Positions 1,888 to 20,467 of a DNA stretch of 32,022 nucleotides are shown in pieces. Under the pieces are notes generated by a model, which ran no database searches, was not told the origin of the DNA, and saw only the letters and a list, made by a program, of their open reading frames with translations. Made by a program: the position numbers and the translations under genes. The DNA is from Deltaproteobacteria bacterium (GTDB taxonomy: Bacteria; Desulfobacterota; Syntrophia; Syntrophales; Smithellaceae), in the NCBI GenBank assembly GCA_025361065.1, contig JANYAY010000171.1, forward strand, positions 1 through 32,022, read 5' to 3'. Positions within the stretch are counted from its first letter, which is position 1, and each line of letters begins with the position of its first letter.

Positions 1888-4308
1888 TTAGTTGCGCAGG
1901 GGTTTGCCCGTTGTCAACATGTGCGTAATGCGATCCTGGGTTTTTTGCTCGCCGCAGAGACTCAGGAAGGCTTCTCTTTCCAGATCCAGAAGTTCCTGTT
2001 CCGAGACATACGTTCCTTCGGGGCAGTCGCCGCCGGAGAGAATATAGGCCACTTTTCTGGCTACGTGGACATCATATTCCGAGATGTAATTGCCTGCTTT
2101 CATATTGTAGAGTGCTGCCTCGATGAGGCCTCGGAAGTTCTCGCCCATAACGGGAATCATAGCCGGCCTGGGCGCCTTGTAGAATCTGGACATGCCGAGA
2201 ACTAGCTGCTTGGCGTCCCAGAGTTGCTGATCCCTGTTCATGCTGATGTTCTCCGTCTTGCGGATGTAGCCCAGATCCATGGCCTCGACGGCGCTTGTGG
2301 ACACCTTCGCCAGGGCGATGTTCTCGAAGGCCTTGGTATAATACTGCTGAATGTTCAGACCAGCCTCAATGGCACCGGTCGGAATGCCTTCGGTTAGACG
2401 CAGGGCAATTTCCTTACAGCCGCCGCCACCGGGAATGACGCCCACGCCGACTTCGACAAGCCCCATGTAGGTCTCACCACAGGGTTGGCATTTCGCGCCG
2501 TGCATCGCCATCTCGCAGCCGCCGCCGAGGGTCAATCCGGCAGGAGCAGTAACCACGGGCGTGGAGAGATACTTCATCCGCATATTGGCGTTCTGGAATT
2601 CGGAGCTGAGTTTCGCCAGGACATCCCACTGTCCGCCCTGGCAGGCCACGAGAATCTTAAAGATATTGGCGCCGGCAGAGAAATTGGCGGCGTGGTTGCC
2701 CACCACCATGCCGGCAAAATCCTTTTCCACTATATCACAACCGGTAAAGATCATTTCCACCAGACCGTCATCCACAGCGTTCATTTTCGTGTGGAACTCC
2801 AGACAGGCCACACCGTCGCCGATATCGACCAGGGTGGCGCTCTCATTGGATTTGATAACCTTTTCCCGGTCTTTCAGGGCGGGCAGGAGGATGATCTTCT
2901 GGTTATCCTCGATCTTCACATAGTCCTTGGCCGCAAAGTCATAGCAGTACAGGCCGTCTTTCTTCTTAACGTAGAAGGATTCGCAACCGGCTTTCAGCAT
3001 TTCTTCGATCTTCTTGGGCACCTTCTTCTCGAGCTTCTTCATGACGGCAACAACGTCTTTCACGCCGACGGCATCCCACAACTCGAAGGGTCCTAGCTGG
3101 TGGTTATAACCCCACTTCATGGCGTTGTCGACAGCCACGATATTGTCGCAGATCTCGGGTACACGGTTGGCGGCATAGATGAAATTGTTGCAGAAATATT
3201 CCCGGATGAGGTCGGCGGCCGCATCATTTCCGTTGAACAGTGATCTGGCCATGGCGCCCACGCCTTCCTCGCCCTTCTTCTTGGCTTCGGAGAGGGAATC
3301 AAATTTTGGCTTGCCCGCAGGAATGTATTCCATGGTGTTGTAGTCCAGAACCATTTTGACGGTTTTGCCTTTATCATCCTTGGTCTTCTTGTAGAAGCCC
3401 TGCTTCGTCTTGTTGCCCAACCACTTATTTTCCATCATTTTGGAAAGAAAATCGACGGGAATGAACACATCACGCGATTCATCGTCCTTAACTGCTTCGT
3501 AGAGGTTCTTCATGACATGATAGCCCGTGTCGAGTCCGACAAGATCCAGGGTGCCGAAGATAGCCGTGCCGGGACGACCGACGGCTTTGCTGATGATGGC
3601 GTCCACTTCATCGATTTTCATCTTCTTCTCCACCATAATGCGGATGGCGTTCGTCAGATCGTACGTTCCGATACGGTTTCCGATGAAGTTGGGAACGTCC
3701 TTGCAGATGACGACGCCTTTGCCCAGGCGTTCCTCGGAGAAGCTAACCATGTAGTCGACGATGTCCTTCTTCGTTTCCTTGCCCGGAATGATCTCCAGCA
3801 GTTTCATGTAGCGGGGCGGATTGAAAAAGTGGGTGCCCAGAAAGCGTTCCTTCAGGCTGGCACTGAAATTAGCGGAGATGTCCTTGATGGGAATCCCCGA
3901 TGTATTGGTGGAAATGATACAGGTGGGCTTTACGATCTTTTCGACTTTGGCAAAGAGTTCCTGTTTGATTTTCAGGTTTTCGATAACGACTTCGCAAATC
4001 CAGTCCACATCGGCCAGCCAGCCCAGATTGTCCTCAAAGTTGCCGATCTTGATCATGGACGCGTTCTTTTTGGTAAAGAAACTGGCGGGCTTTGATTTGG
4101 TCACGCCGGCCAGGCCGGCAGCGGCGAAGCGGTTGCGCCAGGCGGGGCTCTGCTCGGTCAACCCTTTCTTCTTGTCCGCTTCCGTCAGCTCGAAAGGCAC
4201 GATATCCAGCAGACAGCACTCGATGCCCGCATTAGTCAGATGGGCTGCTATTGTGGCGCCCATGACACCTGCCCCCAGGACGGCGGCTTTCTTAATTGCA
4301 TATGACAT
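1888..4308 (-). CDS. fadN: FadN-type 3-hydroxyacyl-CoA dehydrogenase / enoyl-CoA hydratase
   Basis: 806 residues from the ATG at 4308, chosen because AAGGAGG lies eight bases upstream; a longer frame reaches 4377 but would begin inside an intercistronic hairpin. The N-terminal half is a 3-hydroxyacyl-CoA dehydrogenase: Rossmann motif GAGVMG at residues 12-17, NTSGIP near 135 and the catalytic His160 in THFFNPP. The C-terminal part is a crotonase: oxyanion-hole segment FSAGAN near 543-548, catalytic Glu599 in GGGCEMAM and Glu619 in MGLVEVG. Dehydrogenase first, hydratase second is the order of Bacillus FadN and the reverse of E. coli FadB. It should hydrate trans-2-enoyl-CoA and oxidise the 3-hydroxyacyl-CoA with NAD+. 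It sits between acyl-CoA dehydrogenase and thiolase, the same trio as the Bacillus fadNAE operon. Confidence 0.92.
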   Translation of the reverse strand: MSYAIKKAAVLGAGVMGATIAAHLTNAGIECCLLDIVPFELTEADKKKGLTEQSPAWRNRFAAAGLAGVTKSKPASFFTKKNASMIKIGNFEDNLGWLADVDWICEVVIENLKIKQELFAKVEKIVKPTCIISTNTSGIPIKDISANFSASLKERFLGTHFFNPPRYMKLLEIIPGKETKKDIVDYMVSFSEERLGKGVVICKDVPNFIGNRIGTYDLTNAIRIMVEKKMKIDEVDAIISKAVGRPGTAIFGTLDLVGLDTGYHVMKNLYEAVKDDESRDVFIPVDFLSKMMENKWLGNKTKQGFYKKTKDDKGKTVKMVLDYNTMEYIPAGKPKFDSLSEAKKKGEEGVGAMARSLFNGNDAAADLIREYFCNNFIYAANRVPEICDNIVAVDNAMKWGYNHQLGPFELWDAVGVKDVVAVMKKLEKKVPKKIEEMLKAGCESFYVKKKDGLYCYDFAAKDYVKIEDNQKIILLPALKDREKVIKSNESATLVDIGDGVACLEFHTKMNAVDDGLVEMIFTGCDIVEKDFAGMVVGNHAANFSAGANIFKILVACQGGQWDVLAKLSSEFQNANMRMKYLSTPVVTAPAGLTLGGGCEMAMHGAKCQPCGETYMGLVEVGVGVIPGGGGCKEIALRLTEGIPTGAIEAGLNIQQYYTKAFENIALAKVSTSAVEAMDLGYIRKTENISMNRDQQLWDAKQLVLGMSRFYKAPRPAMIPVMGENFRGLIEAALYNMKAGNYISEYDVHVARKVAYILSGGDCPEGTYVSEQELLDLEREAFLSLCGEQKTQDRITHMLTTGKPLRN

Positions 4309-4336
4309 AATGATCCTCCTTGTTGATGTTTTTTTA

Positions 4337-4388
4337 AACCCCGCCTTGTGTCCCATCGTCCGCTTATGGACGACCACAAGACGGGGTT
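4337..4388 (-). other. Long intercistronic hairpin between acyl-CoA dehydrogenase and fadN-type gene
   Basis: Arms AACCCCGCCTTGTG (4337-4350) and CACAAGACGGGGTT (4375-4388) pair over 14 positions with one mismatch and enclose a smaller CGTCC/GGACG stem. On the minus strand it is followed by TTTAAAAAAAC, not a proper T-tail. It probably sets transcript stability or partial read-through inside the operon. Confidence 0.55.
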
Positions 4389-4403: not shown

Positions 4404-6266
4404 TTAAGAAGCGAATGATTCGTCGGCAATCTCCAGAGTAGATCTGTCGCCAAACTTGATCGCTTCACACCGGGCCTTCACCGTTGTGAGGGCTTCATTG
4501 GCAAAAAATTTCGCTGAAGAGACTTTCCCTGTATAGAAGGCCACATCAGGATCCCCATGGACAAGGGCGCGTTGCTTGCCAATCGTATCAGCGCCCTTCG
4601 CCTGGTAAATACCCGCAAGCTTTTCTTCGGCAATCAGCGCCGCCTGCATCAGGATATTGCCCGCCACGAGATCGCCGAAAGCATCCATGAACGGCGACGC
4701 GTTGAGGATGGGAAGAAGAAAGCCGCCGCTTTTGCCTAGCTGGCCGAAGGTCATGGTCAGGTCGATAATGGCATTGCACGCCTCTTCCAGGGCGGACGCA
4801 TAGGCCTTCAGGCTTGCGTTGGCCTTGGCCTGGCCAATGGTCGCCATGATTTCACCAACGAGATTCATTACATTGGCGCCTTTTTTGGAACCAAGCTTGC
4901 GGCCTACCAGATCGAGACTCTGGATGCCGTTGGTGCCCTCGTAGATGGTGGTGATCTTGCAGTCCCTCAGATACTGCTCGACGGGATACTCGGCGCAGAA
5001 GCCGTAACCGCCGTGCACATCCATCGCCTTGGAACAAACGATCATGGCGTTGTCGGAAACCCAGGCCTTGCATACGGGAATCAGCAGCTCGGCCATGCCC
5101 TTCCATTTATCGTGCTCCGGCTTGGATTCGGTGGATTCCGCCACATCGAGGCAGTAGGAAGAGTAGTAAAGAATGGCCCGCATGGCTTCCACGCGGGATT
5201 TCATCCAGAGGAGATCCCGGCGGACATCCGGATGTTGAATAATGGCAACGGCCTTGGCTTCGGGATTCTTCATTTCCCAGACGGGCGTGCTCTGGATTCT
5301 TTCCTTGGCATACTGGACGGAGCGCTCCAGGCAGGCGCTTGCTGTGCCCAGAGCCTGATAGCCGACTTCGATGCGGGCTTCGTTCATCAACTGGAACATG
5401 ACCTTCAAACCTTCCCGCTCCTTGCCGAGGAGTTCGCCGATGCAGCTCCCGTTGTCGCCGAAGTTGAGCGTACAGGTTGCATTGCCGTGAATGCCCATCT
5501 TGTGCTCGATATTACCCGTTTGCACGTCGTTACTGCCGCCGATAGTTCCGTCATCTTTGACCTTAAACTTCGGAACAATGAAAATGGAGATGCCCGCCGT
5601 ACCGGGAGCATCACCTTCAATTCTGGCCAGGACGGGATGAATGATATTCTCCGTGAGATCGTGATCACCGCTGGAGATAAAGCACTTGGTCCCTGTAATG
5701 CTGTAGGTGCCGTCCGGCAGTCTTTTCGCCGTCGCTTTCAGCGCCCCGACATCGCTGCCCGCGCCCGGTTCCGTGAGGCACATGGTTCCGCCCCATTGCC
5801 CGGCATACATCTTGACCATGTATTTGCTCTTTTGCTCTTCAGTACCGAAATTTTCAATGAGGGCGGCCGCTCCGTTGGTCAATCCCGGGTACATAGTAAA
5901 GGGATAGTTGGCCGCCACAAAAAGTTCCGAACAGGCATTGCTCATGAGAAGAGGCATTCCCTGTCCCCCCACATCGACACACCGGGAGGGGCAAAGCCAG
6001 CCGGCTTCAACGAACTTCTGGTAGGCATCATGGAATATCGCCGGTACTGTTACCTTGCCGTCCTTGAAGGTGCAGCCTTCCCTGTCGCCGATGACATTGG
6101 TCGGCAAAATGACATTGACGGCCATTTTCTCCGCTTCGGTCAGCAGCATCATCACATCATCCTTGGAGAAATCCTTATACTTCTCCGTCGCAAACAGCTT
6201 CTCGATGCCCAGCTGCTCAAAAAGCAGGAATTGCTGATCTCTCATATTCACCAATAAATTACTCAT
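4404..6266 (-). CDS. fadE: Acyl-CoA dehydrogenase, long form (~600 aa)
   Basis: 620 residues, much longer than the ~380-residue short and medium chain enzymes, with the extra C-terminal helical domain of the long FadE-like class. It oxidises acyl-CoA to trans-2-enoyl-CoA with FAD, passing electrons to ETF. Visible family motifs are MCLTEPGAGSDVGALKA (162-178) for FAD and substrate, DVHGGYGF (416-423), and the catalytic base Glu443 in IYEGTNGIQ. The ATG at 6266 has GGAGGAGG six to eight bases upstream. No membrane segment or signal is present, so it is cytoplasmic. It is 49 bp behind the 3-hydroxyacyl-CoA dehydrogenase and opens the dehydrogenase/FadN/thiolase trio. Chain-length preference cannot be read from sequence. 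No etfAB is in the window. Confidence 0.92.
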   Translation of the reverse strand: MSNLLVNMRDQQFLLFEQLGIEKLFATEKYKDFSKDDVMMLLTEAEKMAVNVILPTNVIGDREGCTFKDGKVTVPAIFHDAYQKFVEAGWLCPSRCVDVGGQGMPLLMSNACSELFVAANYPFTMYPGLTNGAAALIENFGTEEQKSKYMVKMYAGQWGGTMCLTEPGAGSDVGALKATAKRLPDGTYSITGTKCFISSGDHDLTENIIHPVLARIEGDAPGTAGISIFIVPKFKVKDDGTIGGSNDVQTGNIEHKMGIHGNATCTLNFGDNGSCIGELLGKEREGLKVMFQLMNEARIEVGYQALGTASACLERSVQYAKERIQSTPVWEMKNPEAKAVAIIQHPDVRRDLLWMKSRVEAMRAILYYSSYCLDVAESTESKPEHDKWKGMAELLIPVCKAWVSDNAMIVCSKAMDVHGGYGFCAEYPVEQYLRDCKITTIYEGTNGIQSLDLVGRKLGSKKGANVMNLVGEIMATIGQAKANASLKAYASALEEACNAIIDLTMTFGQLGKSGGFLLPILNASPFMDAFGDLVAGNILMQAALIAEEKLAGIYQAKGADTIGKQRALVHGDPDVAFYTGKVSSAKFFANEALTTVKARCEAIKFGDRSTLEIADESFAS

Positions 6267-6315: not shown

Positions 6316-7227
6316 TCAAATAGCGTGACCGGCGATGAATCCCGGTTGTCGGAACAACGGACCGGGGTACCGATAAAATCCTTTTCCTGTTTTCTGGCCG
6401 ACCTCACCCCGATCCACAAACTGTTTCAGAAAGTCGGCATTTTTCTGTAATTGCGCGTCGCCGGTTTGTTTTGCCCAGTAAGCCGTAACCTTCCACGCTG
6501 TATCGATGCCGATGCTGTCCATCAGTCCGAAGGGACCTACCGGCATATTCATAACTCCCATCCAGGACCTGTCTATATCTTCAATGGATGAGATACCGTT
6601 GGCGGCGAGGGTTTGCGCCGATTCGAGAAAAGCCCGGAGCATGGCATTGAACACATAGCCGCTGCTTTCCTTGCCGAGCATAATATCGATAAGTCCCATT
6701 CGCTTCGCGAAACCCTGAACGGCATGAATCGCTTCTTCATCGGTTCCGGGATGGGGCATGATATCGACAACGGTGTTTGTGCGGAGATCGTGGAAGTGGA
6801 GGGCGAGAAACTTGCCGGGCCTTCCCGTTGCCGAGGCAAACATGGACGGCAGCAGGGTGGAAGTGTTCGTGGTGAAGATGGTGCGGGGTGGACAGAGAGT
6901 GTGAAAAAGGGAAAAAACATTCCCTTTCAGGACGGGGTCTTCGGGAACTGATTCACTGACCAAGTCGATATCCGTAGCCGCCTCTTCCGGAACCGTCGTG
7001 GTCTTGATCCGGCCAATCGCCGCCTGGGCCTCCTCCTGGGTAATCCGTTTTAAGCGAACATAGGTTCCGGCCATCTTTTGAATAATCGCCAAAGCCTTGG
7101 TCAGTAATTCCTCCTGGATATCGTAGATTACGACGTTGCAGCCGTACATGGCGAAATGGAGGGCGATCTGCCGGCCCATGGTGCCGCCGCCGATGATCAG
7201 GATGCGTTGAATATCTTCCGGTTTCAC
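6316..7227 (-). CDS. 3-hydroxyacyl-CoA dehydrogenase (single-domain type)
   Basis: 303 residues, the size of 3-hydroxybutyryl-CoA dehydrogenases. It begins with a Rossmann fold: IIGGGTMGRQIALHF at residues 11-25 and the acidic residue ending beta-2 at VVIYD. The catalytic His is likely His144 in LALHFH, preceded by TTNTS at 119-123. The usual HFFNPP segment is replaced by HFHDLRTNTVVDIMPHPGT, so the second catalytic acid would be Asp155 instead of Glu. The start is GTG at 7227, with AAGGAG seven bases upstream and no alternative ATG nearby. The operon thus holds two hydroxyacyl-CoA dehydrogenases (this and the FadN type), which points to two different hydroxyacyl-CoA substrates in the pathway. 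Function as an NAD+-dependent hydroxyacyl-CoA oxidoreductase is confident, the substrate is not. Confidence 0.88.
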   Translation of the reverse strand: MKPEDIQRILIIGGGTMGRQIALHFAMYGCNVVIYDIQEELLTKALAIIQKMAGTYVRLKRITQEEAQAAIGRIKTTTVPEEAATDIDLVSESVPEDPVLKGNVFSLFHTLCPPRTIFTTNTSTLLPSMFASATGRPGKFLALHFHDLRTNTVVDIMPHPGTDEEAIHAVQGFAKRMGLIDIMLGKESSGYVFNAMLRAFLESAQTLAANGISSIEDIDRSWMGVMNMPVGPFGLMDSIGIDTAWKVTAYWAKQTGDAQLQKNADFLKQFVDRGEVGQKTGKGFYRYPGPLFRQPGFIAGHAI

Positions 7228-7252: not shown

Positions 7253-8038
7253 TCATGCGCCGGTAAAGGCGGGCTTCCTCCGTTGGGTGAAGGCTTGAAC
7301 GCCTTCCACATGATCGGTTGTCTTCATAAGCTTTCCCTGCGCGTCCGTCATCAGTTTGATGGCCTCGTCCGCCTCCATATTCAGGCTTCCATAGATGGTC
7401 TTCTTGGCATAACCATAGGCCAGTGTCGGACCTTTGGCCATACGACCCGCCAGTTTAGCTGTTTCTTCTTCCAGTGACGCCGCCGGGACAACTTTGTTGA
7501 TCATGCCTAGTCGGAGCGCTTCTTCGGCATTGATAATCTTGCCTGTCCAGATTAGTTCGAGGGCTTTGCGCACACCGACGGCCTTGGGAAGAAGGTACGT
7601 GTTCCCGATGAGTCCGAGGTTAATGTATAACTGGCCGAATGATGCCTGATCGGAGGCAATAATATAATCGCAGGCCAGGGCGATTTCTCCGCCCGCACCG
7701 AAGCAAATGCCGTTGACACAGGCAATGACCGGTTTCGGCAAGGCCATCAAACGTTTCATCACTACGGGATATGCCTTTGTTTCGATCGTCTGGGCTACTT
7801 CCGGCGCCGAAAGAGTCTTGGCGAGTTCCATCATCTTGATGTCGTCTCCGGCGGAAAACATCTGGCTTGCTCCGGTTACAACTACTGCCCGGATCTGTTC
7901 ATCTTTTTCGCAGCGGTCAACGGCAGCGGCGATTTCCTCAACCATCTCAAAATTGATGCAGTTCATCTCTTTCGGTCGATTCAGCGTGATAGTGGCGATA
8001 CCCTTATCCGCCTGAAACAATATGTACTGGTACTCCAT
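7253..8038 (-). CDS. Crotonase-family protein (enoyl-CoA hydratase/isomerase)
   Basis: 261 residues, typical of the crotonase fold. The oxyanion-hole segments are ASQMFSAGDDIKMM (about 57-70) and the GICFGAGGEIALACD block (about 110-124), whose Glu aligns with Glu144 of rat enoyl-CoA hydratase. The second catalytic Glu (Glu164 in the rat enzyme, within FGQPE) is missing: here the text is FGQLYINLGLIGN, with Tyr at that place. It may therefore be an enoyl-CoA isomerase or another crotonase reaction, leaving standard hydration to the FadN-type protein. The ATG at 8038 has AGGAGG seven bases upstream. It lies 25 bp before the single-domain dehydrogenase and is separated from the AbfD-type gene by a 325-bp gap holding a MITE-like element. 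Confidence 0.88.
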   Translation of the reverse strand: MEYQYILFQADKGIATITLNRPKEMNCINFEMVEEIAAAVDRCEKDEQIRAVVVTGASQMFSAGDDIKMMELAKTLSAPEVAQTIETKAYPVVMKRLMALPKPVIACVNGICFGAGGEIALACDYIIASDQASFGQLYINLGLIGNTYLLPKAVGVRKALELIWTGKIINAEEALRLGMINKVVPAASLEEETAKLAGRMAKGPTLAYGYAKKTIYGSLNMEADEAIKLMTDAQGKLMKTTDHVEGVQAFTQRRKPAFTGA

Positions 8039-8256
8039 GTATGCCTCCTGTTTATTCTTTGATGTTCTTTATCCAAAAACGAAGGGTTACGGCGATTCGG
8101 GATTTAATCCGGGCGCAGCCCTCGTGCTTACTTTTGTCTTCTCCGGGCGGTGAAATGATCGCCGCAATCTCCTCTCTAGTCATGCCGCAAACCCGGCACC
8201 CGCTTGGATTACAGCGGCTACCGGGGTGAGCTCACAGGAAGATTAGAATTCAACTA
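8039..8256. other. Gap inside the operon, left part
   Basis: Together with the adjoining MITE-like element this makes a 325-bp interruption between the AbfD-type gene and the crotonase. I see no convincing gene; a 62-codon plus-strand frame at 8041-8229 has no ribosome binding site and no recognisable product. No clear promoter was found for the downstream genes. Confidence 0.5.
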
Positions 8257-8350
8257 ATACCAATTCGCGCTCGCAGGCTAACTTTGTTGGCACAGCCTGC
8301 CCCGGCGCAGGCCGGGGTCGTCGCGTTATCCTTTGAAAGCAAAATGGTAT
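8257..8350. mobile_element. MITE-like element, short copy
   Basis: The 94-bp segment opens with ATACCAATTCGC and closes with GCAAAATGGTAT, imperfect terminal inverted repeats. Its core, CTAACTTTGTTGGCACAGCC followed by a CCCCGG/CCGGGG stem and GTCGTCG, is identical to the core of the longer element at 29631-29775. The short copy lacks about 50 bp that the long copy has between GTCGTCG and GCGTTATC. No coding capacity. The GC-rich stem could lower read-through into the downstream beta-oxidation genes. Confidence 0.75.
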
Positions 8351-8363
8351 AATCTGGAGTTGA

Positions 8364-9827
8364 TCAGCTCTTGATCCCCGCCAGGGTCTTCACCAGTTTT
8401 TTCCTCAACTTAATGTCGTACTGGGAAGTGATGGCGATCTGCTCCATGATGGGAGATCCACCGCCGTGATAGTTACCATAGTTCATAACACCGGCCAAAG
8501 TACCGATGGTGTAGTCGCCCAGAGTCATCCAGAACTTAATCTGGTCTTCCACGGGAACCTTGGGATTGCGGTTAAGGTATTTTTCCAGGACCGCCTTCAG
8601 GTCGGGATGGGCCAGATCTCCTTCGTAGGGGAAGGTAGCCGGGAGTCCACCAGCGATCCGGCAAAGAAGCTCCTGCTCATGAAAGACCGCTTCTCCCGTC
8701 AGACAGCGACCCACATTGCAGTAAATGGAGTTGGGAATGTAGCTGCCCGGACCGTAGGGGCAACTGCCCATACCCGGGATGATGACCTCCGGCTTGCCCA
8801 TGCTGGAGGCGGTGAAACCTGCGGCATAGCCCAGCTCTGATACTTTGATGATCTCCGCCAGCATTTCCTTCACATGGGGAGTCTTTTCAATGCCATTGTA
8901 TTCTGCTGCCAGGGCTGCCAGGCCAAGGAAAACGTCTCCGATGGCGGGCTTGCATCCCGAGTAGCTGTGGCGGTGGAACAGGGCGAATAGCAGGGCGCAC
9001 AGGCCGCCATGATCGTTTTCGCCGCAGAGGAAGACCCGTTCCCAGGGGACAAAGCAGTCCTCAAAGATGACGTAGGAGTCGGCATAGCCTATATCATTCC
9101 CGCGCTTGATATGTTTGCGCGCATGCATGTTATGGATGGTAACGACCTGCTTGACTCCTTCGTAATCAGAGGGAACGGCAAAGGCCACAGCGTAGTCCTT
9201 CTCATCGGGACCCAAGGCGCGGGTAGGAACAACGAGTATCTCATCGGATATGGAGGCCTCGGAAATGTGGAGTTTGCAGCCTCGGACGACGATTCCATCA
9301 CTTTTCTTCTCCACGACGCGGACATACATGTCGGGATCCGTCTGCTGGATGGGCCGCTTCAGGCGCTCACCCTTGACATCCGTCTGGGCGCAGCTTCCCA
9401 CGAGGTCTTCTTTCTGGAAGCGTTCAAGCCATTTCAGGAAGTTTTTATAGTAGGAGGTATTCCCGCTGTTCACCTTGTCCGCTTCAAAGGAAACGGCGTT
9501 GACGGCGTTGAGAGCATCAGTGCCCATGCAGCGCTGAATGCACATCCCCGCCTTCCGGCACAGGGCGCGGGTCATGTCCTGCTTCTTGTGAAGATCGTCC
9601 GTACTTTGATGCACATGACAGAAGCGGTTGATCGTTTCGCCTGTTAAATGTGAGGTGGCCGTGCACAGATCCTTCAACTCCGGATCGTTTACGGCGTCGA
9701 ACGTCATACCCATCACGTTCAGGACAGGTTGCTGAAGTTCGTCATCACGGTCGATCTTCTCGCCGTCATGATAAAGATTGCGTCTCATTTTCCGGAGCCC
9801 TGCAATGTATTGTTCTTTTGTTCTCAT
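8364..9827 (-). CDS. abfD: 4-hydroxybutyryl-CoA dehydratase family protein (AbfD-like)
   Basis: 487 residues against about 490 for Clostridium aminobutyricum AbfD, and similar along its whole length (for example TINRF..HQSTDDL, VVEKxxDGIVVRG). AbfD uses FAD and a [4Fe-4S] cluster to turn 4-hydroxybutyryl-CoA into crotonyl-CoA by a ketyl-radical route and also isomerises vinylacetyl-CoA. All four cluster ligands are present: Cys96 and Cys100 (GMCIQRC), His285 and Cys292 (FHRHSYSGC), as are the equivalents of Tyr296 and Lys300. Some active-site positions differ: the place of AbfD Glu455 is Gly451 (MNYGNYHGGGSP), Glu257 is Asp250, Thr190 is Ser189, Ala460 is Gly456. That comparison rests on AbfD recalled from memory. 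The ATG at 9827 follows the tetR stop by 4 bp, with AAGGAG seven or so bases upstream. Family membership is sure; the true substrate may differ from 4-hydroxybutyryl-CoA. Confidence 0.9.
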   Translation of the reverse strand: MRTKEQYIAGLRKMRRNLYHDGEKIDRDDELQQPVLNVMGMTFDAVNDPELKDLCTATSHLTGETINRFCHVHQSTDDLHKKQDMTRALCRKAGMCIQRCMGTDALNAVNAVSFEADKVNSGNTSYYKNFLKWLERFQKEDLVGSCAQTDVKGERLKRPIQQTDPDMYVRVVEKKSDGIVVRGCKLHISEASISDEILVVPTRALGPDEKDYAVAFAVPSDYEGVKQVVTIHNMHARKHIKRGNDIGYADSYVIFEDCFVPWERVFLCGENDHGGLCALLFALFHRHSYSGCKPAIGDVFLGLAALAAEYNGIEKTPHVKEMLAEIIKVSELGYAAGFTASSMGKPEVIIPGMGSCPYGPGSYIPNSIYCNVGRCLTGEAVFHEQELLCRIAGGLPATFPYEGDLAHPDLKAVLEKYLNRNPKVPVEDQIKFWMTLGDYTIGTLAGVMNYGNYHGGGSPIMEQIAITSQYDIKLRKKLVKTLAGIKS

Positions 9828-9831
9828 GGTA

Positions 9832-10584
9832 TTACTCCTTTTTTTTGCTCAAATGTTTATCTTTCCCGGCGTTCTTGCGGGAAACCACGGATTCTCTTTT
9901 TTCCATTTTTTCTTTTTTCTGCATCAACTCATTCAGAACTCTGGCATCGTCTATATTCAACCTCAGGACCAGGCCTGATTCCTGGCTTTTCATTCTGATT
10001 CCATCCAATATGGCCTCCATCAAAGGATCCAGGAAATCCATTATGGGCTCCTTTTTTGATAATCCTTTGAGGTGCCACTGGATAAACATATGCTCAATGC
10101 TGCCCAGTAACATGGCACGGAGAATATAGGGATCTACATTCTTTTTAAAGGTGCCGTCCTTAATACCATCCCGGATGCAATCCAGAACAATATGAGCAGA
10201 TCTGCGGACTGTCGCATGGGCCTTGGTCTGACGGAACCGCTTATTGGGCATAAGTTGCAACAGGACCAGAGCCGAATAGTCGGGATTTTCGCGATAGAGG
10301 CGGATATAGCTGCATAATACAGCCCTGATCCGAGCCTCTGTTCCTCTGATATAGGGAAGAACGTGCTCGAACTCGGCGATGGTTTCGACTGTTATCTTTT
10401 CGGGTATGGCGAACAGAAGATCTTCTTTAGTGCCGAAATTCTCATATACGGTGGCTTCGGAAACACCCGCCTTTTTGCTGATCTCCGCAATCGTAGTATC
10501 CTGAAATCCCTTGTCGGCAAAAATCCGCAGAGCGGCCTCCATGATCCTGTCTTTTCTGCTTTTCACCTTGCTGTTTTCCGTCAC
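9832..10584 (-). CDS. TetR/AcrR-family transcriptional regulator
   Basis: 250 residues. The N-terminal DNA-binding domain covers residues 11-60, with the helix-turn-helix at about 31-50 (TIAEISKKAGVSEATVYENF). The larger C-terminal part is the ligand-binding domain and ends in a Lys-rich tail. The start is GTG at 10584, with GGGAG about seven bases upstream, only some 20 nt behind the predicted transcription start. It is the first gene of its operon, 4 bp before the AbfD-type gene, and its promoter carries an inverted repeat across the -10 box, so it likely represses itself. The shared promoter module upstream of livK suggests it controls the importer operon too, probably with an acyl-CoA intermediate as ligand; this last part is inference from other TetR-type acyl-CoA regulators. 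Confidence 0.9.
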   Translation of the reverse strand: MTENSKVKSRKDRIMEAALRIFADKGFQDTTIAEISKKAGVSEATVYENFGTKEDLLFAIPEKITVETIAEFEHVLPYIRGTEARIRAVLCSYIRLYRENPDYSALVLLQLMPNKRFRQTKAHATVRRSAHIVLDCIRDGIKDGTFKKNVDPYILRAMLLGSIEHMFIQWHLKGLSKKEPIMDFLDPLMEAILDGIRMKSQESGLVLRLNIDDARVLNELMQKKEKMEKRESVVSRKNAGKDKHLSKKKE

Positions 10585-10607
10585 GAATCGCTCCCTATGG
10601 TAAACGT

Positions 10608-10642
10608 GACTATATTATAAAATAACATAGTCTGACTGTCAA
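10608..10642 (-). promoter_or_regulatory. Consensus sigma-70 promoter with overlapping operator for tetR operon
   Basis: On the minus strand TTGACA (10642-10637), a 17-nt spacer and TATAAT (10619-10614) form a perfect consensus promoter. An inverted repeat GACTAT (10608-10613) / ATAGTC (10627-10632) brackets the -10 box, the position expected for an autorepressor site. Predicted start of transcription is near 10607, about 22 nt before the GTG. Confidence 0.8.
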
Positions 10643-10701
10643 GTATTATTTTATTCCATAGCCTCACTGTTATTTTTAGTCGCATATAACAGTCTTACTA
10701 A
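10633..10701 (-). promoter_or_regulatory. Conserved promoter-upstream module, tetR copy
   Basis: This 69-bp block aligns without gaps to 20487-20555 upstream of livK, with about 55 identities counted by eye. The best-kept parts are TGACTGTCAAGT (containing the -35 box) and ATATAACAG-CT-ACTAA at the far end. Within it ACTGTTAT (10666-10673) and ATAACAGT (10686-10693) form a perfect 8-bp inverted repeat, a candidate operator or activator site. The rest of the 10585-10839 gap shows nothing clear. Confidence 0.7.
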
Positions 10702-10839
10702 TATTTCTCCCACAAACCTTGCTGACAGACTGACTCCGGTACGCAGAGCCCTGCACTGCCGATCGCCAGAAAAAATGGGACGCCGACCACCTCAGGGGCT
10801 TTTTAAAGTGTCGTCTTGTACGCAATAGGGAATGAAAAT

Positions 10840-12633
10840 CTATTTTGCATATAATGCATCAATCTGATCCTTGCATTTTTCAAAGACAACGCGCCTCTTG
10901 AGTTTCATGGTCTGAGTCAGCATGCCGTTCGCCAGGGTAAAAGGTTCGCTCATAAATATGAATTTTTTCGGGATCTCATACGTGGCATATTTATCCTTGA
11001 GGGTATTTGCTATTTCACTTACAAGAAATCTTTTTACCTCTTCCCTTTTAACGAGCTCATCATGATCCTTAGGGAGATTATTTTTTTCGGCCCATTTATC
11101 CAGCGCAATAAAATCCGGGATTATCAGACAAACATTAAACTCCCGGCCTTCCCCGTAAATCATGGCGTTTTCAATGAAGTGGTTCAGCTTGATATCTTCT
11201 TCAATCGCTACCGGGAACACATATTTGCCGTTTTCCAGCTTAAACTGCTCTTTAAGCCTTCCGGTAATAAAAAGGAAGCCTTCCTCGTCGAGACGTCCGC
11301 GGTCGCCCGTCCGAAATCCACCGTCAGGCGTCATAACGGCTGCTGTAGCTTCGGGCTTGTTATGATATCCCTGCATAACGTTAGGTCCGTAAATAATTAT
11401 TTCCCCGTCTTTGGCGTCGGGTCCGACTAAAGATTTATCAATCACTATCTTGCATTTGTCCATCACCGGGCCAACGCTGCCGATCTTGTATTTAGACGGG
11501 CAGTTCATGGTTGCTCCCGGCGAGGTCTCGGTCAATCCGTAAGCGTCATAAAGGGGAATACCCATATCCCAGAAAAAGTGAGAAATTTCCGGATTCATCG
11601 CGGCGCTTCCAGTCATGGATCCGGTTAATCTGCCGCCGAGTTTTTCCCGAATTTTCTTAAAAACAACAGCGTCCGCAATTTTAAATTTCAGGTTGGTCAT
11701 AAAATCGGATTTGCCTAGTGCCGCAAGCTCTCGTTTCTTCTTGGCGCTCTCCACTCCCATAACGAACAATTTCCTGGGAAGTCCGCCTTCTTCGTTCATC
11801 TTCGTCCATAAACCGTCATATACCCGGTTGAAGACTCTGGGTACGGCAATAAGATAAGTCGGCTTAACCAGAAGCAAATCATCGCCGATGGTCGTTGCGC
11901 TTTCCGCGAAACCTATTGATCCGCCCAGATGGCAGTATGTGACAAGTTCCGCCAGCCCGAAGACATGCGCCCAGGGCAGGATGGATAGTGTCCTGTCATT
12001 TTCATTCATGTGCGGGAAGTTAACCGTCGTAGCATGAGCGTTGCTCGTTATGTTGCCCTGGGAAAGGAGCACGCCTTTCGGGTCGCCGGTAGTTCCCGAT
12101 GTGTAAATCAGAATGCAGATGGCCGAATGTTCCGGATAGATGCTTTTTACTTTCCGGGCTGCGCCTTTCTTTTCCAAATCCGCCAGCGTATCCGGCCCAT
12201 CGCCTTCCATCAGGATAACTTTTTTTAACGTTGATATTGCAGAAATGCTGTCTTTGATCTTCTCGTATATTTCTTTCTTGGTGATAAAAAGCACCTTCAC
12301 TTTAGCGTCATTTATTATGTATTTCCACACTTGCACCAATTCAGCCTCATACATGGGCACGAACCTCGCACCCAGACCGCTAGTAGCGTAAAAACATACC
12401 GCCCAATCGGTGCTGTTATTCGAGATAATACCTACGGCATCGTCTTTGGCGATACCCAACTGACTCAACCCGCTTCTGACATTATCCACGCGTGATCCGA
12501 AATCAGCATATGTTATCCAGTCATATTGTTTCAATTTCTTGTTTTTCGTTCCCAGAAAAGGTCTCTGTCCAAATTTTGGAATGGATTTCTCCAGCATTTC
12601 CACTATATTGTCCGGTTTGGTTAATTGATACAT
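10840..12633 (-). CDS. AMP-forming acyl-CoA synthetase, long-chain (ACSL/FadD) type
   Basis: 597 residues, the length of long-chain acyl-CoA ligases. It activates a free carboxylic acid with ATP and CoA to acyl-CoA, AMP and PPi. Visible adenylate-forming motifs are YTSGTTGDPKG (177-187), YGLTETSPG, RTGDRGRLDEEGFLFITGR, the long-chain type segment FKLENGKYVFP, and NGMLTQTMK (569-577) holding the expected catalytic Lys577. No signal peptide or clear membrane anchor. The ATG at 12633 has AAGGAGG seven bases upstream. It sits alone between the CoA-transferase pair and tetR, with gaps of 334 and 255 bp, so it may have its own promoter. With the CoA-transferases it gives the island two ways to make the CoA ester. 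Confidence 0.9.
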   Translation of the reverse strand: MYQLTKPDNIVEMLEKSIPKFGQRPFLGTKNKKLKQYDWITYADFGSRVDNVRSGLSQLGIAKDDAVGIISNNSTDWAVCFYATSGLGARFVPMYEAELVQVWKYIINDAKVKVLFITKKEIYEKIKDSISAISTLKKVILMEGDGPDTLADLEKKGAARKVKSIYPEHSAICILIYTSGTTGDPKGVLLSQGNITSNAHATTVNFPHMNENDRTLSILPWAHVFGLAELVTYCHLGGSIGFAESATTIGDDLLLVKPTYLIAVPRVFNRVYDGLWTKMNEEGGLPRKLFVMGVESAKKKRELAALGKSDFMTNLKFKIADAVVFKKIREKLGGRLTGSMTGSAAMNPEISHFFWDMGIPLYDAYGLTETSPGATMNCPSKYKIGSVGPVMDKCKIVIDKSLVGPDAKDGEIIIYGPNVMQGYHNKPEATAAVMTPDGGFRTGDRGRLDEEGFLFITGRLKEQFKLENGKYVFPVAIEEDIKLNHFIENAMIYGEGREFNVCLIIPDFIALDKWAEKNNLPKDHDELVKREEVKRFLVSEIANTLKDKYATYEIPKKFIFMSEPFTLANGMLTQTMKLKRRVVFEKCKDQIDALYAK

Positions 12634-12967
12634 CAGATTCCTCCTTAGAATTATTTATTGGTACTTATTATTATTGACTTAATAATTCCATCATTTTCTC
12701 CGGGCGGGCTTGGTCCTGAAATATCAACCGCCGGAAGAAATGATCTTCATTTTTCAAGCAACCGACAGCTTATTCTTTGGAGAGTTTTTTCAAATTCAGC
12801 CTGCAACGCAGGATTGTTCTTGGGATGTTTTGTGTTTAAATGGTTTTTTCGCCAGACGTGACGAACAGCCGGCATGTCGTTGACATCGGCGTATCATGGC
12901 CCAAATGTTGTGCCAAAACCGCAGGCATAGGCGGTCAATCATCGTCTAGTCAATGCATGATAATGGC
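12634..12967. promoter_or_regulatory. Gap between CoA-transferase operon and acyl-CoA synthetase
   Basis: No gene is supported here. Close upstream of the synthetase start lies an inverted repeat, TTATTA (12668-12673) and TAATAA (12680-12685) around TTGACT, a possible operator. I did not find a convincing terminator for the CoA-transferase genes ending at 12968, nor a consensus promoter for the synthetase. A plus-strand frame at 12840-13106 looks like a shadow. Confidence 0.35.
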
Positions 12968-14311
12968 TCAGCCGGACTTTTTTTCCACTAATCCGTATTT
13001 TTTGAAAATATATTCATTATCTTCGCCAATATCAGCGGAAAGCCATTTGACCCTTAAAGGCGTTTTCGACAACTTGCCGGTTACAGGTAAGGTGACGATT
13101 CCGTAAGAGGGATGTTCTACTTTAGCAAAAGAGCCGCGAATCTGCCAGTGTTTTTCCTGAAGGACCTCTTTGGGTGTTAACATTTTTGTCGTGACCGGAA
13201 GCCCTCCCCCTCGCCACTTGGAGCGGGCGGATTTTACGCTGAAGGAAGAAAATTTTTCATTAATCTCATCGTAAGTATACTTGGCGACCGCATCCTCTAC
13301 TTCATTATTCAATTCTTGGACTTTATCAATATCATCCGTGATGCGATCAAGAAGCGTTTTCCATTCTCCCTCCAGCTTCCATTTCCCGAGGATTCTCATA
13401 GCCGCCCGAAAGTCCTGATCCCGGAAGCAGGCAATGGCCACATAGCTGTCTTTGCATTTAAAAAACCCGTAAGGGCAAAGGCCGTAATCGAGAGTCCCGT
13501 AACGAAACCTCGGTTTCTTCCAGACATAGCCAATGGTGGGCGGGAACCCGACACAGGAAGCGTAGGCATCGGCTGAAGCTATATCAACCATTTGTCCTTC
13601 ACCGGTCCGGCGCTTGAAGAAAGAAGCCACAAGGCCTCCGCAGGCTGCTCCGACAGCGGATGTATATCCGGCGGCATAAAACCCCGCGCGGGTCGGCCAG
13701 TTGTAAGGTTCCGGAGTGTTCGGAAGATCGCCGATCAGAGCGGCCAGACCGGACTCGGCCTGTGAGGTCAGGTCAGTCCAGGGCATACCGGCCATCTCTT
13801 TGCCTTTGGCGGTGTAATGCCCGTAAGGCGTGATGGCAATATAAATCAGGCCGGGATTGAGTTCCCGCAATTGCCGGTAGCCAATTCCCCATTCATCCAT
13901 TTCGCCGGGGGCAAAGGTTTCAATCAGAACGTCGGCCCGGGTCGCGAGGAGCTTGAGGTTTTCTCTGTCTTCGGGGTTGCTCAAATCCAGGGCAACGTTG
14001 CGTTTATTCCGGCTCTCCATCAGATAGGGAATGCCCACGCCCTTTACATTGGCCCCGTAAGGGCTGACAATGCGGGAAGGATCTCCTTCGGGTGGTTCAA
14101 TCTTAATAACCTCGGCTCCGGCTTCGGCGAAAAAACTCGCTGTAATATTGCCGGAAAAATTGGCATAACTTAAGTCGAGGACCATCATGTCATCGAGGGC
14201 TTCCGGCTTTCCTTCGGAGGTCATCATTTTCGATAGAAGCTGGCTCCATTCGGACAATGGCCCGGACGAACTTGTCTTCTGCAAGTATCTGGAATAAATG
14301 CGCTCTTTAAT
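12968..14311 (-). CDS. Family III (CaiB/BaiF) CoA-transferase, second subunit; probable ATT start
   Basis: Family III CoA-transferase moving CoA between acyl groups through an aspartyl-CoA intermediate. Features: LDLSYANFSG near the N-terminus, AEVIKIEPPEGD, ALDLSNPEDREN, VLIETFAPGEMDEWGIGY and the catalytic Asp in WTDLTSQAESG (residue 180 from the start used here). The frame is open to an ATG at 14359, but that codon has no ribosome binding site and lies 50 bp inside the upstream gene. A perfect AAGGAGG ends 8 nt before an ATT codon at 14311-14309 that overlaps the upstream TAA stop by one base. Starting there gives 447 residues beginning (M)KERIYSRYLQ. An ATG pair further in lacks a ribosome binding site. 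It is translationally coupled to the first CoA-transferase, suggesting a two-subunit enzyme. Confidence 0.85.
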   Translation of the reverse strand: MKERIYSRYLQKTSSSGPLSEWSQLLSKMMTSEGKPEALDDMMVLDLSYANFSGNITASFFAEAGAEVIKIEPPEGDPSRIVSPYGANVKGVGIPYLMESRNKRNVALDLSNPEDRENLKLLATRADVLIETFAPGEMDEWGIGYRQLRELNPGLIYIAITPYGHYTAKGKEMAGMPWTDLTSQAESGLAALIGDLPNTPEPYNWPTRAGFYAAGYTSAVGAACGGLVASFFKRRTGEGQMVDIASADAYASCVGFPPTIGYVWKKPRFRYGTLDYGLCPYGFFKCKDSYVAIACFRDQDFRAAMRILGKWKLEGEWKTLLDRITDDIDKVQELNNEVEDAVAKYTYDEINEKFSSFSVKSARSKWRGGGLPVTTKMLTPKEVLQEKHWQIRGSFAKVEHPSYGIVTLPVTGKLSKTPLRVKWLSADIGEDNEYIFKKYGLVEKKSG

Positions 14312-15665
14312 GGTCCTCACCTCCTTCGTAATTAAATATCTTGTCCTTGGCCAGATCATGATAAATCGGTGGTCTCTGGCCGACCCGATAATCCCAGTTA
14401 CCCACCACTCTTTCTTTTTCCAATTCTTTAATCTGGTCTTCCGTCAGTCCCATGATTTTCTTTAAGACATAGCGATTATGATAACCCAGTGGCCGGGAAA
14501 GCCATTTCGTCCGTCCCGGTGTTTTGCTGAGCATGGCGATCGGTCCTTCAATGACCAGCTTTTTATACATATCGTCTTCAAAGGGAATAACGCTTCCCCT
14601 TTCCTGCCGCCATTCATCATTGCAGATCTGCACATCATCCATTACCTCGGTAGCGGCAAAGCGGTGTTTACGGGCTAATTCGATTAATTCGGCTGCGTTT
14701 TTCGTTTTCACCCATTCCTCAACGACTTTATTTAAGGTCAGAGCATGTTCCGGCTGGAGCCGGCGGAAAGCCTTATTATATTTTTCGTCACGGGCAAGAT
14801 CTTCGCGGCCCAGAGCTTTGCAGAAAGATTGAAATTGCTTATCCGAGGCAATGGCCAGCGCGAGAAATTTTCCATCGAGCGTCTTAAATATTCCCGAGGG
14901 GGACATAGTGGGGTCCGAATTGCCGGTGCGCCCGAGATCATTTCCGGTGGCATCATGATAAGTAAAATGGGATAATGCTCGCATCAGTATTTCCGCCTGA
15001 CATCCGTCGAGATACTGCCCCTCTCCGGAACGCTCCCGGTAGTTGAGGGCGATAAGAATCAGCATAGCCGCGTAATACCCGGGGAAAAAATCACCGAAAA
15101 AATCAGGAACCTTGAAATACTTATCAGTATCCGGATGACCGGTTACCGACAGGACGCCGCTGGCGCCCTGGGCCAGCAAGTCCCAGCCGGGATTATACCG
15201 CTTCGGTCCATACTGTCCATAAGTGCTCAGACTGGCATAAATGACTTTAGGATTAATTTTACTGATCTGGGAGTAGCCTATGCCCCATGCTTCCACAGTC
15301 CCGGAGGTGAAATTTTCAATGACAATATCGGCTTTTTCCGCCAGCTTCAGGATCAGATCCTTGCCTTTGGGTTTCTTGACATCGATAGCAACAAAATATT
15401 TGCTCTGATTGATGAAATGCCACAGGGGATTGGAGTGCTTCCAATACTTGCCCCAGTATGTGCCACCACGCCAGTAGTCGCCCTGGTTGGGTACTTCCAC
15501 CTTAATGACCTCGGCGCCATACTGCGCCAGGAATTTCGCCGCCGTCGGGCCGAAAATCATGTGTGATAAATCCAGCACGCGGAGGCCTTTGAGTGCTTCC
15601 GCCTTTTTATCGGTGTCCTGCGGGGCAAAAAGCTTGTTGGTAAAACCAAAATAGTCTTCAGTCAT
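14307..15665 (-). CDS. Family III (CaiB/BaiF) CoA-transferase, first subunit
   Basis: 452 residues. Family features in order: LKGLRVLDLSHMIFGP (26-40), AEVIKVEVPNQGD (51-63), AIDVKKPKGKD (93-103), VIENFTSGTVEAWGIGY (115-131) and the catalytic Asp162 in PGWDLLAQGASG. The ATG at 15665 comes 2 bp after the livF stop. Its own 3' end carries the AAGGAGG for the next CoA-transferase. Two adjacent, different family III genes resemble BbsE/BbsF, the two subunits of succinyl-CoA:benzylsuccinate CoA-transferase, so a heteromeric enzyme is plausible; this is inference. Being cotranscribed with the importer, it likely activates the imported acid using succinyl-CoA or acetyl-CoA as donor. Confidence 0.88.
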   Translation of the reverse strand: MTEDYFGFTNKLFAPQDTDKKAEALKGLRVLDLSHMIFGPTAAKFLAQYGAEVIKVEVPNQGDYWRGGTYWGKYWKHSNPLWHFINQSKYFVAIDVKKPKGKDLILKLAEKADIVIENFTSGTVEAWGIGYSQISKINPKVIYASLSTYGQYGPKRYNPGWDLLAQGASGVLSVTGHPDTDKYFKVPDFFGDFFPGYYAAMLILIALNYRERSGEGQYLDGCQAEILMRALSHFTYHDATGNDLGRTGNSDPTMSPSGIFKTLDGKFLALAIASDKQFQSFCKALGREDLARDEKYNKAFRRLQPEHALTLNKVVEEWVKTKNAAELIELARKHRFAATEVMDDVQICNDEWRQERGSVIPFEDDMYKKLVIEGPIAMLSKTPGRTKWLSRPLGYHNRYVLKKIMGLTEDQIKELEKERVVGNWDYRVGQRPPIYHDLAKDKIFNYEGGEDH

Positions 15666-15667
15666 CT

Positions 15668-16372
15668 TTACATTCCTATATAAGCTTTCTTCACCAGTTC
15701 GTTGTTTAAGAGAAAATCGTTCGTTCCTTCCAGCACAATGTGACCGTCCTGTAATACATAGCCCCGATCGGCGATTTCCAGGGCATAAAGCGCATTTTGC
15801 TCCGACAGGAGCACTGTAATTCCATCAGCGGGAAATGTTTTAATGACGTCGTAGATCTGAGACATAATAAGCGGGCTGAGACCCAGCGACGGTTCATCGA
15901 TCATGAGGAGCTTAGGCTGGGCCATCAATCCGCGGGCAATCACCAGCATTTGCTGTTCTCCTCCACTCATCAGGCTGGCCCTCTGCCCGGAGCGTTCCTT
16001 CAGGATGGGAAATAAAGTGCATACCTTATCCATTGTTTTCTTCCGCTGTTTCCATGCTCGCGGCGTACAGGCTCCCATGAGCAGGTTTTCTTTCACGGTC
16101 AGATAAGTGAAAATTTTTCTTCCTTCGGGAATCTGAGATATGCCGAGCTTAACAATCTTGTCGGAAGACAGGTTTTGTATTTCGTTACCCATAAAGGAGA
16201 TACTTCCCGTTTTGATGGGCAGTACCGCGGAGATATTGTTAAGCACCGTTGTTTTTCCTGCTCCGTTCCCCCCCAGCAGGGCGACAATTTCTCCCTGGCG
16301 AACTTCGAGATTCACACCGTGGAGAACAGGAATCACGCCGTAGGCGGCGCTCAGATCATTAATGTTGAGCAT
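15668..16372 (-). CDS. livF: Branched-chain amino acid-type ABC transporter ATP-binding protein
   Basis: 234 residues, the normal LivF length. Walker A is GGNGAGKT (34-41), the ABC signature MSGGEQQ (135-141), Walker B LLMIDE (155-160) and the H-loop region follows. It powers import with LivG at the inner face of the cytoplasmic membrane. The gene overlaps livG by 14 bp and is 2 bp before the first CoA-transferase, so transport and CoA activation are made from one transcript. The label branched-chain amino acid is only the family name; members of this family also carry aromatic, alicyclic and dicarboxylic acids, and the enzymes around it suggest a carboxylic acid. Confidence 0.93.
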   Translation of the reverse strand: MLNINDLSAAYGVIPVLHGVNLEVRQGEIVALLGGNGAGKTTVLNNISAVLPIKTGSISFMGNEIQNLSSDKIVKLGISQIPEGRKIFTYLTVKENLLMGACTPRAWKQRKKTMDKVCTLFPILKERSGQRASLMSGGEQQMLVIARGLMAQPKLLMIDEPSLGLSPLIMSQIYDVIKTFPADGITVLLSEQNALYALEIADRGYVLQDGHIVLEGTNDFLLNNELVKKAYIGM

Positions 16373-20409: not shown

Positions 20410-20467
20410 CATGCTTCCTCCTCTGGTTTTTATATTTTTTCTAGCATTTACTTCACTCTCTGCAATT

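Follow-up and report, generated by a model that had tools for sequence, protein, structure and literature searches.

In a stretch of 32,022 nucleotides from a Deltaproteobacteria bacterium of the Smithellaceae (assembly GCA_025361065.1, contig JANYAY010000171.1; hereafter the window), we found a gene for a homologue of AbfD, the 4-hydroxybutyryl-coenzyme A (CoA) dehydratase, that keeps the positions of all four [4Fe-4S] cluster ligands and has glycine in place of the glutamate Glu455. Judged from sequence, the protein (the query) represents a large, apparently unnamed family of AbfD-related iron-sulfur flavoenzymes without this key glutamate, and this family looks like a sister family of AbfD. 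We tentatively read the query, at slightly less than an even chance, as an enzyme with flavin adenine dinucleotide (FAD) and a [4Fe-4S] cluster, both of which it probably binds, that would turn an imported acid, once linked to CoA, into a 2-enoyl-CoA with no net oxidation. The likeliest reaction is dehydration of a 4-hydroxyacyl-CoA bulkier than 4-hydroxybutyryl-CoA. The gene and the codons in question, placed by alignment to AbfD, are as follows.

8364-9827, minus strand: AbfD-like protein (HpaB/4-hydroxybutyryl-CoA dehydratase superfamily, HGGGSP family), 487 amino acids (aa), ATG to stop
9540-9542, minus strand: Cys96 codon, presumed cluster ligand (AbfD Cys99), ligand role transferred from AbfD
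9528-9530, minus strand: Cys100 codon, presumed cluster ligand (AbfD Cys103), ligand role transferred from AbfD
9261-9263, minus strand: Ser189 codon (AbfD Thr190)
9078-9080, minus strand: Asp250 codon (AbfD Glu257)
8973-8975, minus strand: His285 codon, presumed cluster ligand (AbfD His292)
8961-8963, minus strand: Tyr289 codon (AbfD Tyr296)
8952-8954, minus strand: Cys292 codon, presumed cluster ligand (AbfD Cys299)
8949-8951, minus strand: Lys293 codon (AbfD Lys300)
8475-8477, minus strand: Gly451 codon (AbfD Glu455)
8460-8462, minus strand: Gly456 codon (AbfD Ala460)

Residue positions were taken from a MAFFT alignment and follow the numbering of 1u8v, AbfD of Clostridium aminobutyricum. 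At positions 99, 101, 103, 190, 257, 292, 296, 299, 300, 455 and 460, 1u8v carries C, Q, C, T, E, H, Y, C, K, E and A; the equivalent residues of the query are C96, Q98, C100, S189, D250, H285, Y289, C292, K293, G451 and G456. The changes to Ser189 and Asp250 are conservative, Gly451 removes the base, and the motif HGAGSP of AbfD reads HGGGSP in the query family. An earlier note on this DNA had assigned the four ligands, the Tyr296 and Lys300 equivalents and the four substitutions; the alignment to 1u8v bears out all ten, with glycine rather than glutamate at position 455.

The query is about 40% identical to 1u8v, its top solved relative (E 1.6e-97 over residues 2-486); the Nitrosopumilus enzyme 6vjr comes second (2.1e-79), and HpaB monooxygenases follow at 3e-29 and weaker. 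Pfam places HpaB_N at residues 3-267 (8.1e-87) and HpaB at residues 280-484 (9.3e-52). The AlphaFold2 model, built from 48 sequences, has a mean predicted local distance difference test score (pLDDT) of 89.2, and structure searches with it (Foldseek, VIA-align) again put 1u8v and 6vjr on top (template modelling score 0.89; Z 47.6 and 48.2). No NCBIfam model names the query or the canonical AbfD of a related locus, L011. Their matches are mainly to HpaB models and fall far short of the cut-offs (for the query, TIGR02309 at 128.7 against 480.2 bits and TIGR02310 at 58.8 against 885.2).

We constructed a tree of 61 proteins with IQ-TREE, excluding columns 190, 257, 380, 455, 460 and 466. The 204 candidates were merged at 82% identity to 59, three reference rows were added and one duplicate of the query was removed. 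The 40 family proteins in the tree, picked by Glu/Gly/Glu at 380/460/466 and all without Glu455, are separated from the rest by a branch that has 100/100 support and was found in 100% of 200 bootstrap trees. On the other side lie 13 rows with Glu455/Ala460, including both solved enzymes, and all 13 carry Thr190/Glu257/Glu455/Ala460, a quartet found in none of the 40 family rows. With the root on the distant rows, a placement that is only moderately secure, Glu455 seems to belong to the AbfD branch rather than to have been lost recently from the query gene. The canonical rows are not one clean group (two changes): the pair L179 (3533-5041) and L180 (4066-5544), on a very long branch, falls among them and keeps the cysteines, with Tyr at His292, Ile at 296 and Val at 300. 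Two further proteins on the AbfD side, L174 (2624-4081) and L178 (502-1977), keep the four ligands and have Cys for Tyr296 plus Gly for Glu455; unlike the query family, they have lost the tyrosine and the glutamate together. Farther out in the tree, L004 (1501-2946), L143 (8698-10251), L175 (2817-4418) and L176 (2637-4262) have Glu at the Ala460 position and lack at least one ligand, Cys99 being the sole one missing in L143 and L175. These four perhaps have acyl-CoA-dehydrogenase-like chemistry.

The genome of the query itself contains five matches: the query gene, a 73% identical paralogue (L127), a canonical AbfD (L003) that is 70% identical to 1u8v, a distant HpaB-like protein that lacks the ligand cysteines, and a frame of 266 codons with the C-terminal part of a canonical AbfD. 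A scan of GTDB genomes with the query gave 99 confirmed loci, of which 80 were kept (66-96% identity). A canonical-type AbfD frame lies within about 10 kilobases (kb) of the family gene in eight of the 80 (L011, L023, L037, L044, L047, L066, L068 and L070; five are Desulfosporosinus), against about 0.4 expected by a simple estimate that ignores relatedness. That frame is cut by the locus end in L037, L066 and L068, and is only partial in L047. This proximity, together with the full-length similarity and the complete ligands, would suit an ordinary 4-hydroxybutyryl-CoA dehydratase with neutral substitutions. We consider this improbable: the canonical quartet divides 13 of 13 from 0 of 40 rows, the branch is separate and supported, and both kinds of enzyme occur in this genome and in others. 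The earlier description of an AbfD homologue with an altered active-site base stands as to homology and the absent Glu455, but the protein looks more like a member of a sister family, and the same genome also has an ordinary AbfD. As an observation on L127, the paralogue has genes resembling, by eye, a B12-dependent acyl-CoA mutase and its GTPase 3-4 kb off (7823-11007 and 14452-15966), preceded by FadE, FadD and enoyl-CoA hydratase homologues.

To describe conservation in the family, we collected 128 aligned rows more than 60% identical to the query (121 loci or rows, 112 distinct sequences), picked irrespective of position 455, with rows of 430 aa or fewer dropped. All 128 have the four ligands, the tyrosine, the lysine, Asp at 257 and Gly at 460. 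Position 455 is Gly in 126 and Ala in two, and position 190 is Ser in 118 and Thr in 10. Gly451 and Asp250 are therefore not a sequencing slip, the same residues recurring across near relatives, and they mark a clade, as the earlier note had proposed. Nor did verified 4-hydroxybutyryl-CoA dehydratases with these residues appear, the two solved enzymes both having the canonical quartet. A second group is 45-51% identical to the query (43-52% after rows were added). Its members also keep the ligands and Gly at 460; position 455 is taken by Ala, Ser or Asp, and position 257 by Asp, Glu or His. We compared the 128 near rows and 10 second-group rows with 10 canonical rows. Gly456, Asp195, Glu384, Glu462, Arg374 and Arg420 are invariant in all 138 near and second-group rows, whereas all 10 canonical rows have Ala460, His196, Lys370 and Gln466, with Ile (nine) or Trp (one) at the Glu384 position and Gly (nine) or Ala (one) at the Arg420 position. 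The joint replacement at Gly456, Asp195, Glu384 and Glu462 suggests coordinated change in a maintained enzyme. Positions 190 and 257 show no single clean covariation among the 40 family tree rows (S+D 20, T+D 12, T+E 3, T+H 2, S+H 2, S+E 1). A degenerate or non-catalytic paralogue, which the replacement of two residues reportedly essential in AbfD might suggest, is very improbable, since family members in several phyla are 66-96% identical to the query, the metal-site residues do not vary and an operator-like site is conserved (below).

By record titles, the family occurs in Syntrophaceae, other Deltaproteobacteria, Desulfosporosinus and relatives (Bacillota), Syntrophomonadaceae, Actinomycetota and Dehalococcoidia. 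Within the class of the window, 121 of 155 genomes match at E<=1e-30, many several times (canonical AbfD and other relatives included); within that of Desulfosporosinus lacus, 35 of 82 match at E<=1e-50, and 26 have a member at least 69% identical (row count). A plasmid collection held only relatives below 60% identity to the query, in 12 records. L021, L022, L023, L085, L129 and L130 each hold two family genes in tandem, which are 64-77% identical to the query and possibly encode two-subunit enzymes or are duplicates. In one Syntrophia genome (L131, 6425-9142), adjoining fragments of family genes appear to be a broken tandem copy. The literature searched (titles, abstract starts and open passages, mostly without subscription papers) contained no description of the family; the main text of a paper on benzene activation, as far as its available passages go, cites AbfD only as a mechanistic analogy (PMC13101534).

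AbfD forms a 2-enoyl-CoA by removal of the C4 hydroxyl. Zhang et al. are said to have found in 2015 that the E455Q and E257Q variants of AbfD have no measurable activity; in their reported scheme, Glu455 deprotonates Tyr296, which reduces FAD, and a proton comes from Glu257 via Thr190. In the query the tyrosine, a hydroxyl and an acid are kept but the Glu455 base is absent, so the start of the reaction must differ from that in AbfD. Ser189 and Asp250 would retain the hydroxyl and the acid of the Thr190/Glu257 pair, the base would have to come from another residue, water or the substrate, and the glycines 451 and 456, which replace Glu455 and Ala460, may leave space for a C4 substituent. Glu384 and Glu462 were considered as named replacement bases and set aside: both are invariant, but so are Arg374 and Arg420, and they may form salt bridges. 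Motif matching would place the catalytic Glu376 of medium-chain acyl-CoA dehydrogenase at Ala460 of AbfD, hence at Gly456.

The query gene lies among fifteen genes in the same direction, from LivK to thiolase. The neighbouring genes, in which ABC stands for ATP-binding cassette and SDR for short-chain dehydrogenase/reductase, are as follows.

20839-21603, plus strand: SDR dehydrogenase; a close homologue directly follows the AbfD-like gene in related loci (80% identical in L012)
19150-20496, minus strand: LivK-like periplasmic binding protein; its TTG start as listed probably lies too far upstream, overlapping an operator-like array
18135-19010, 17098-18141, 16359-17093 and 15668-16372, minus strand: LivH-, LivM-, LivG- and LivF-like ABC transporter genes
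14307-15665, minus strand: CoA-transferase family III, first of an overlapping pair
12968-14359, minus strand: CoA-transferase family III, second of the pair
10840-12633, minus strand: AMP-dependent acyl-CoA ligase (FadD-like)
9832-10584, minus strand: TetR-family regulator, 4 base pairs (bp) upstream of the AbfD-like gene; FadR-like match of 82 bits, below the curated cut-off of 200
7253-8038, minus strand: enoyl-CoA hydratase/isomerase (crotonase family)
6316-7227, minus strand: 3-hydroxyacyl-CoA dehydrogenase (NF006143, 352 bits, cut-off 312)
4404-6266, minus strand: acyl-CoA dehydrogenase of the type of about 600 aa; solved relatives include FadE5
1888-4377, minus strand: FadN-like 3-hydroxyacyl-CoA dehydrogenase/crotonase
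632-1822, minus strand: acetyl-CoA C-acyltransferase (thiolase)

In L006, whose AbfD-like protein is 96% identical to the query, LivK-H-M-G-F, two CoA-transferases, TetR, the AbfD-like gene, enoyl-CoA hydratase and 3-hydroxyacyl-CoA dehydrogenase form one run, the hydratase starting 24 bp past the AbfD-like stop. This run has no acyl-CoA dehydrogenase (one lies downstream, beyond 386 bp and a second TetR gene), so the AbfD-like protein is the sole candidate there for making the 2-enoyl-CoA. Gene order varied among relatives. Many Syntrophaceae have TetR before and SDR after the AbfD-like gene. In many Desulfosporosinus the hydratase precedes that gene, and acyl-CoA dehydrogenase, 3-hydroxyacyl-CoA dehydrogenase, DUF362, FadN and thiolase follow. 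The query-type and the second-group gene of D. lacus each have a hydratase gene directly upstream. Three sets of genes succeed one another there: the second-group gene accompanied by enoyl-CoA hydratase, 3-hydroxyacyl-CoA dehydrogenase and a gene of the acetyl-CoA hydrolase/transferase family, the canonical-type AbfD by thiolase, and the query type by its beta-oxidation genes. The company of TetR, SDR and CoA ligase around the AbfD-like gene resembles the lva operon. The DUF362 protein (L136, 18075-19373, and homologues) recurs in Desulfosporosinus and Acididesulfobacillus clusters, its protein cluster being present in 19 of 85 loci. Within the window, a 997-aa WD40-repeat protein lies towards the end (24997-27990).

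We then counted neighbours in the 48 of 80 loci with 5 kb on both sides (32 with less on one side were dropped), using as controls 20 arbitrary stretches from 9 related genomes, which are few and not all matched in phylum. A homologue of the window's thiolase, FadN, FadE, 3-hydroxyacyl-CoA dehydrogenase, enoyl-CoA hydratase or FadD lay within 5 kb in 35 of 48 loci and in 0 of 20 controls. Merging relatives at 85% left 13 of 20 against 0 of 20, and at least two kinds of beta-oxidation gene were present in 5 of 20 merged loci against 0 of 20 (p 0.047). CoA-transferase and FadN neighbours, raised as a possible mark of the clade in the earlier note, do not define it: homologues were found in 2 and 13 of 85 loci, respectively, many of which are incomplete.

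Shared operator-like arrays connect the importer with the query gene. Three regulatory elements were identified in the window.

10614-10642, minus strand: sigma-70 consensus promoter TTGACA-17-TATAAT, 12/12, upstream of TetR
10627-10701, minus strand: three operator-like sites of 13 bp at 31-bp spacing, upstream of TetR and overlapping the promoter
20481-20555, minus strand: second three-site operator-like array, also at 31-bp spacing, in front of the Liv-type ABC operon

The promoter scan gave eight promoter-like sites against 7.1 expected, the TetR one being the sole 12/12 match, and a palindrome overlaps it. Among 12 other loci whose TetR is more than 45% identical, seven have the 13-bp site ATAGTCAGACTAT, with up to two mismatches allowed, close to the TetR start, and L006, L012, L013, L015 and L016 lack it there. 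Otherwise the site is rare, with 37 matches in 1.27 megabases (both strands, those at TetR starts included). In L006 a pair of sites lies just upstream of LivK, heading the run that ends with the AbfD-like gene, the hydratase and the 3-hydroxyacyl-CoA dehydrogenase. A matrix of 15 sites from other loci, including the two L006 LivK sites and one identical to the window's own, scored the arrays upstream of TetR and LivK at 49.3 and 33.2, against 11.9 for the best of 30 random dinucleotide-like windows. A second matrix of 10 sites, without L006, L007 or any site equal to the window's, scored them at 48.1 and 32.8, against 11.7 for the best of 100 exact dinucleotide shuffles. Over the array scans, the best score in 100 exact dinucleotide shuffles ranged from 11.7 to 13.5. 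The TetR protein may bind these sites, and the same array at TetR and LivK ties the importer and the CoA-transferases to the AbfD-like gene. No array was found in the window scan upstream of FadD (12634-12967). Two operator-like sites upstream of a second-group gene (L116, 5200-5273) hint at the same type of regulator.

Taken with the gene order, our reading would run as follows. The acid would enter via the Liv-type ABC transporter, and the class III CoA-transferases, or the ligase, would form its CoA ester. The AbfD-like enzyme would strip the C4 hydroxyl and a C3 hydrogen and place the C2-C3 double bond, as in AbfD, and enoyl-CoA hydratase, 3-hydroxyacyl-CoA dehydrogenase and thiolase would complete the breakdown. 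The earlier suggestion that the protein may handle another hydroxyacyl-CoA remains the best reading and fits the clade and the gene order; the substrate itself we infer. With an importer of the Liv type, a soluble acid is more likely than a long-chain one. Long-chain hydroxy fatty acids made by oleate hydratase were given little weight as substrates. An oleate hydratase family gene (PF06100, 688 bits) is present in the genome of the query (G000:C19:14786-16249), and PF06100 scores above cut-off in 6 of 154 genomes of the class, this one and five other Syntrophia. A clade member is found in all six, yet about 40 of the 51 genomes in the same family carry one as well (row count).

Several observations weigh against dehydration of a 4-hydroxyacyl-CoA. 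Given the reported inactivity of E455Q and E257Q, a protein with Gly451 cannot follow the proposed AbfD route unchanged, and the loop with Gly451-Gly456 is poorly predicted (pLDDT below 50 at 455-461 and 463-470). The window's hydratase-to-thiolase genes start after a 325-bp gap, and the window scan found no array upstream of this operon (8039-8363). In L008, L009, L011 and L012 (91-94% identity), TetR precedes the gene and SDR is the next matched gene, and homologues of the window's hydratase and transporter are both missing from that run. Only 4 of 20 merged loci, against 0 of 20 controls, had three or more kinds of beta-oxidation gene (p 0.11). Acyl-CoA dehydrogenases are included in both the window and the D. 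lacus clusters, and the latter has a ferredoxin-type gene about 5 kb upstream.

This ferredoxin-type gene also bears on another 2-enoyl-forming or radical reaction on CoA esters, for example with a different C4 leaving group or as two-electron acyl-CoA dehydrogenation with the cluster relaying electrons. Such a reaction would suit the new invariant Glu384 and Glu462 and the canonical AbfD retained in the same genome; moreover, neither Glu455 nor the Glu at 460 of L004, L143, L175 and L176 is kept, so the proton chemistry must differ. We regard it as rather unlikely, as Tyr289, Lys293 and the ligands, which serve dehydration in AbfD, are invariant, and no electron-transferring flavoprotein or ferredoxin family was matched among the 20 window proteins scanned with Pfam. 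AbfD also isomerises vinylacetyl-CoA, and the query could have this second activity alone, turning a 3-enoyl-CoA or related beta,gamma-unsaturated CoA ester into the 2-enoyl-CoA. The product and the gene order would suit equally well, and loss of Glu455 could leave isomerisation intact. An isomerase alone is nonetheless unlikely: crotonase-family isomerases need no oxygen-sensitive cluster, a crotonase gene already adjoins, and the fully conserved ligand positions suggest a cluster in use.

Compared with known systems, the query shares with AbfD (1u8v, 6vjr) the fold, the four ligand positions, the Tyr296/Lys300 equivalents and the setting among CoA-ester enzymes, and differs in Ser/Asp/Gly/Gly for Thr190/Glu257/Glu455/Ala460, in HGGGSP, in the fixed Asp195, Glu384 and Glu462 and in its separate branch. 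With the HpaB two-component flavin monooxygenases (2yyg, 9lft) it shares the superfamily fold (Foldseek 4.2e-25 for 9lft), but in the alignment 2yyg has no cysteines at query ligand positions 96 and 100. LvaA/LvaC of levulinate catabolism and mammalian ACAD10/ACAD11 address the same problem, the conversion of a 4-hydroxyacyl-CoA to a 2-enoyl-CoA; the query belongs to a different protein family, with cluster ligand residues. According to the passages available, 4-hydroxyacyl-CoAs of more than four carbons need a conversion step for which Pseudomonas and mammals use a kinase and an unusual acyl-CoA dehydrogenase, the kinase phosphorylating the 4-hydroxyl and the phosphate then being eliminated (PMC11342911, PMC12440821). 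The gamma-butyrobetainyl-CoA trimethylamine-lyase BbuA is described, in the part of the source consulted, as a flavoenzyme of the acyl-CoA dehydrogenase family that performs a redox-neutral C4 elimination from a CoA ester and has about 10% identity to 4-hydroxybutyryl-CoA dehydratase (PMC8364193). It resembles the query in the proposed redox-neutral C4 elimination and differs in protein family.

A natural family that keeps the tyrosine and the ligands without Glu455 provides a direct test of the radical proposal said to rest on Glu455 and Tyr296. Genomes with both kinds of enzyme are prone to annotation as having a second 4-hydroxybutyrate pathway or an aromatic hydroxylase. If the family does dehydrate 4-hydroxyacyl-CoAs, it would fill a gap in how anaerobes degrade hydroxy and oxo acids, compounds that block beta-oxidation. 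It is possible, though doubtful, that these [4Fe-4S]-flavin enzymes, which have expanded in number in syntrophic and sulfate-reducing anaerobes, act on various 4-substituted acyl-CoAs in an ATP-free and redox-neutral way, through a reactive state without the Tyr-Glu455 couple, and would thus be the anaerobic counterpart of LvaA/LvaC and ACAD10/11.

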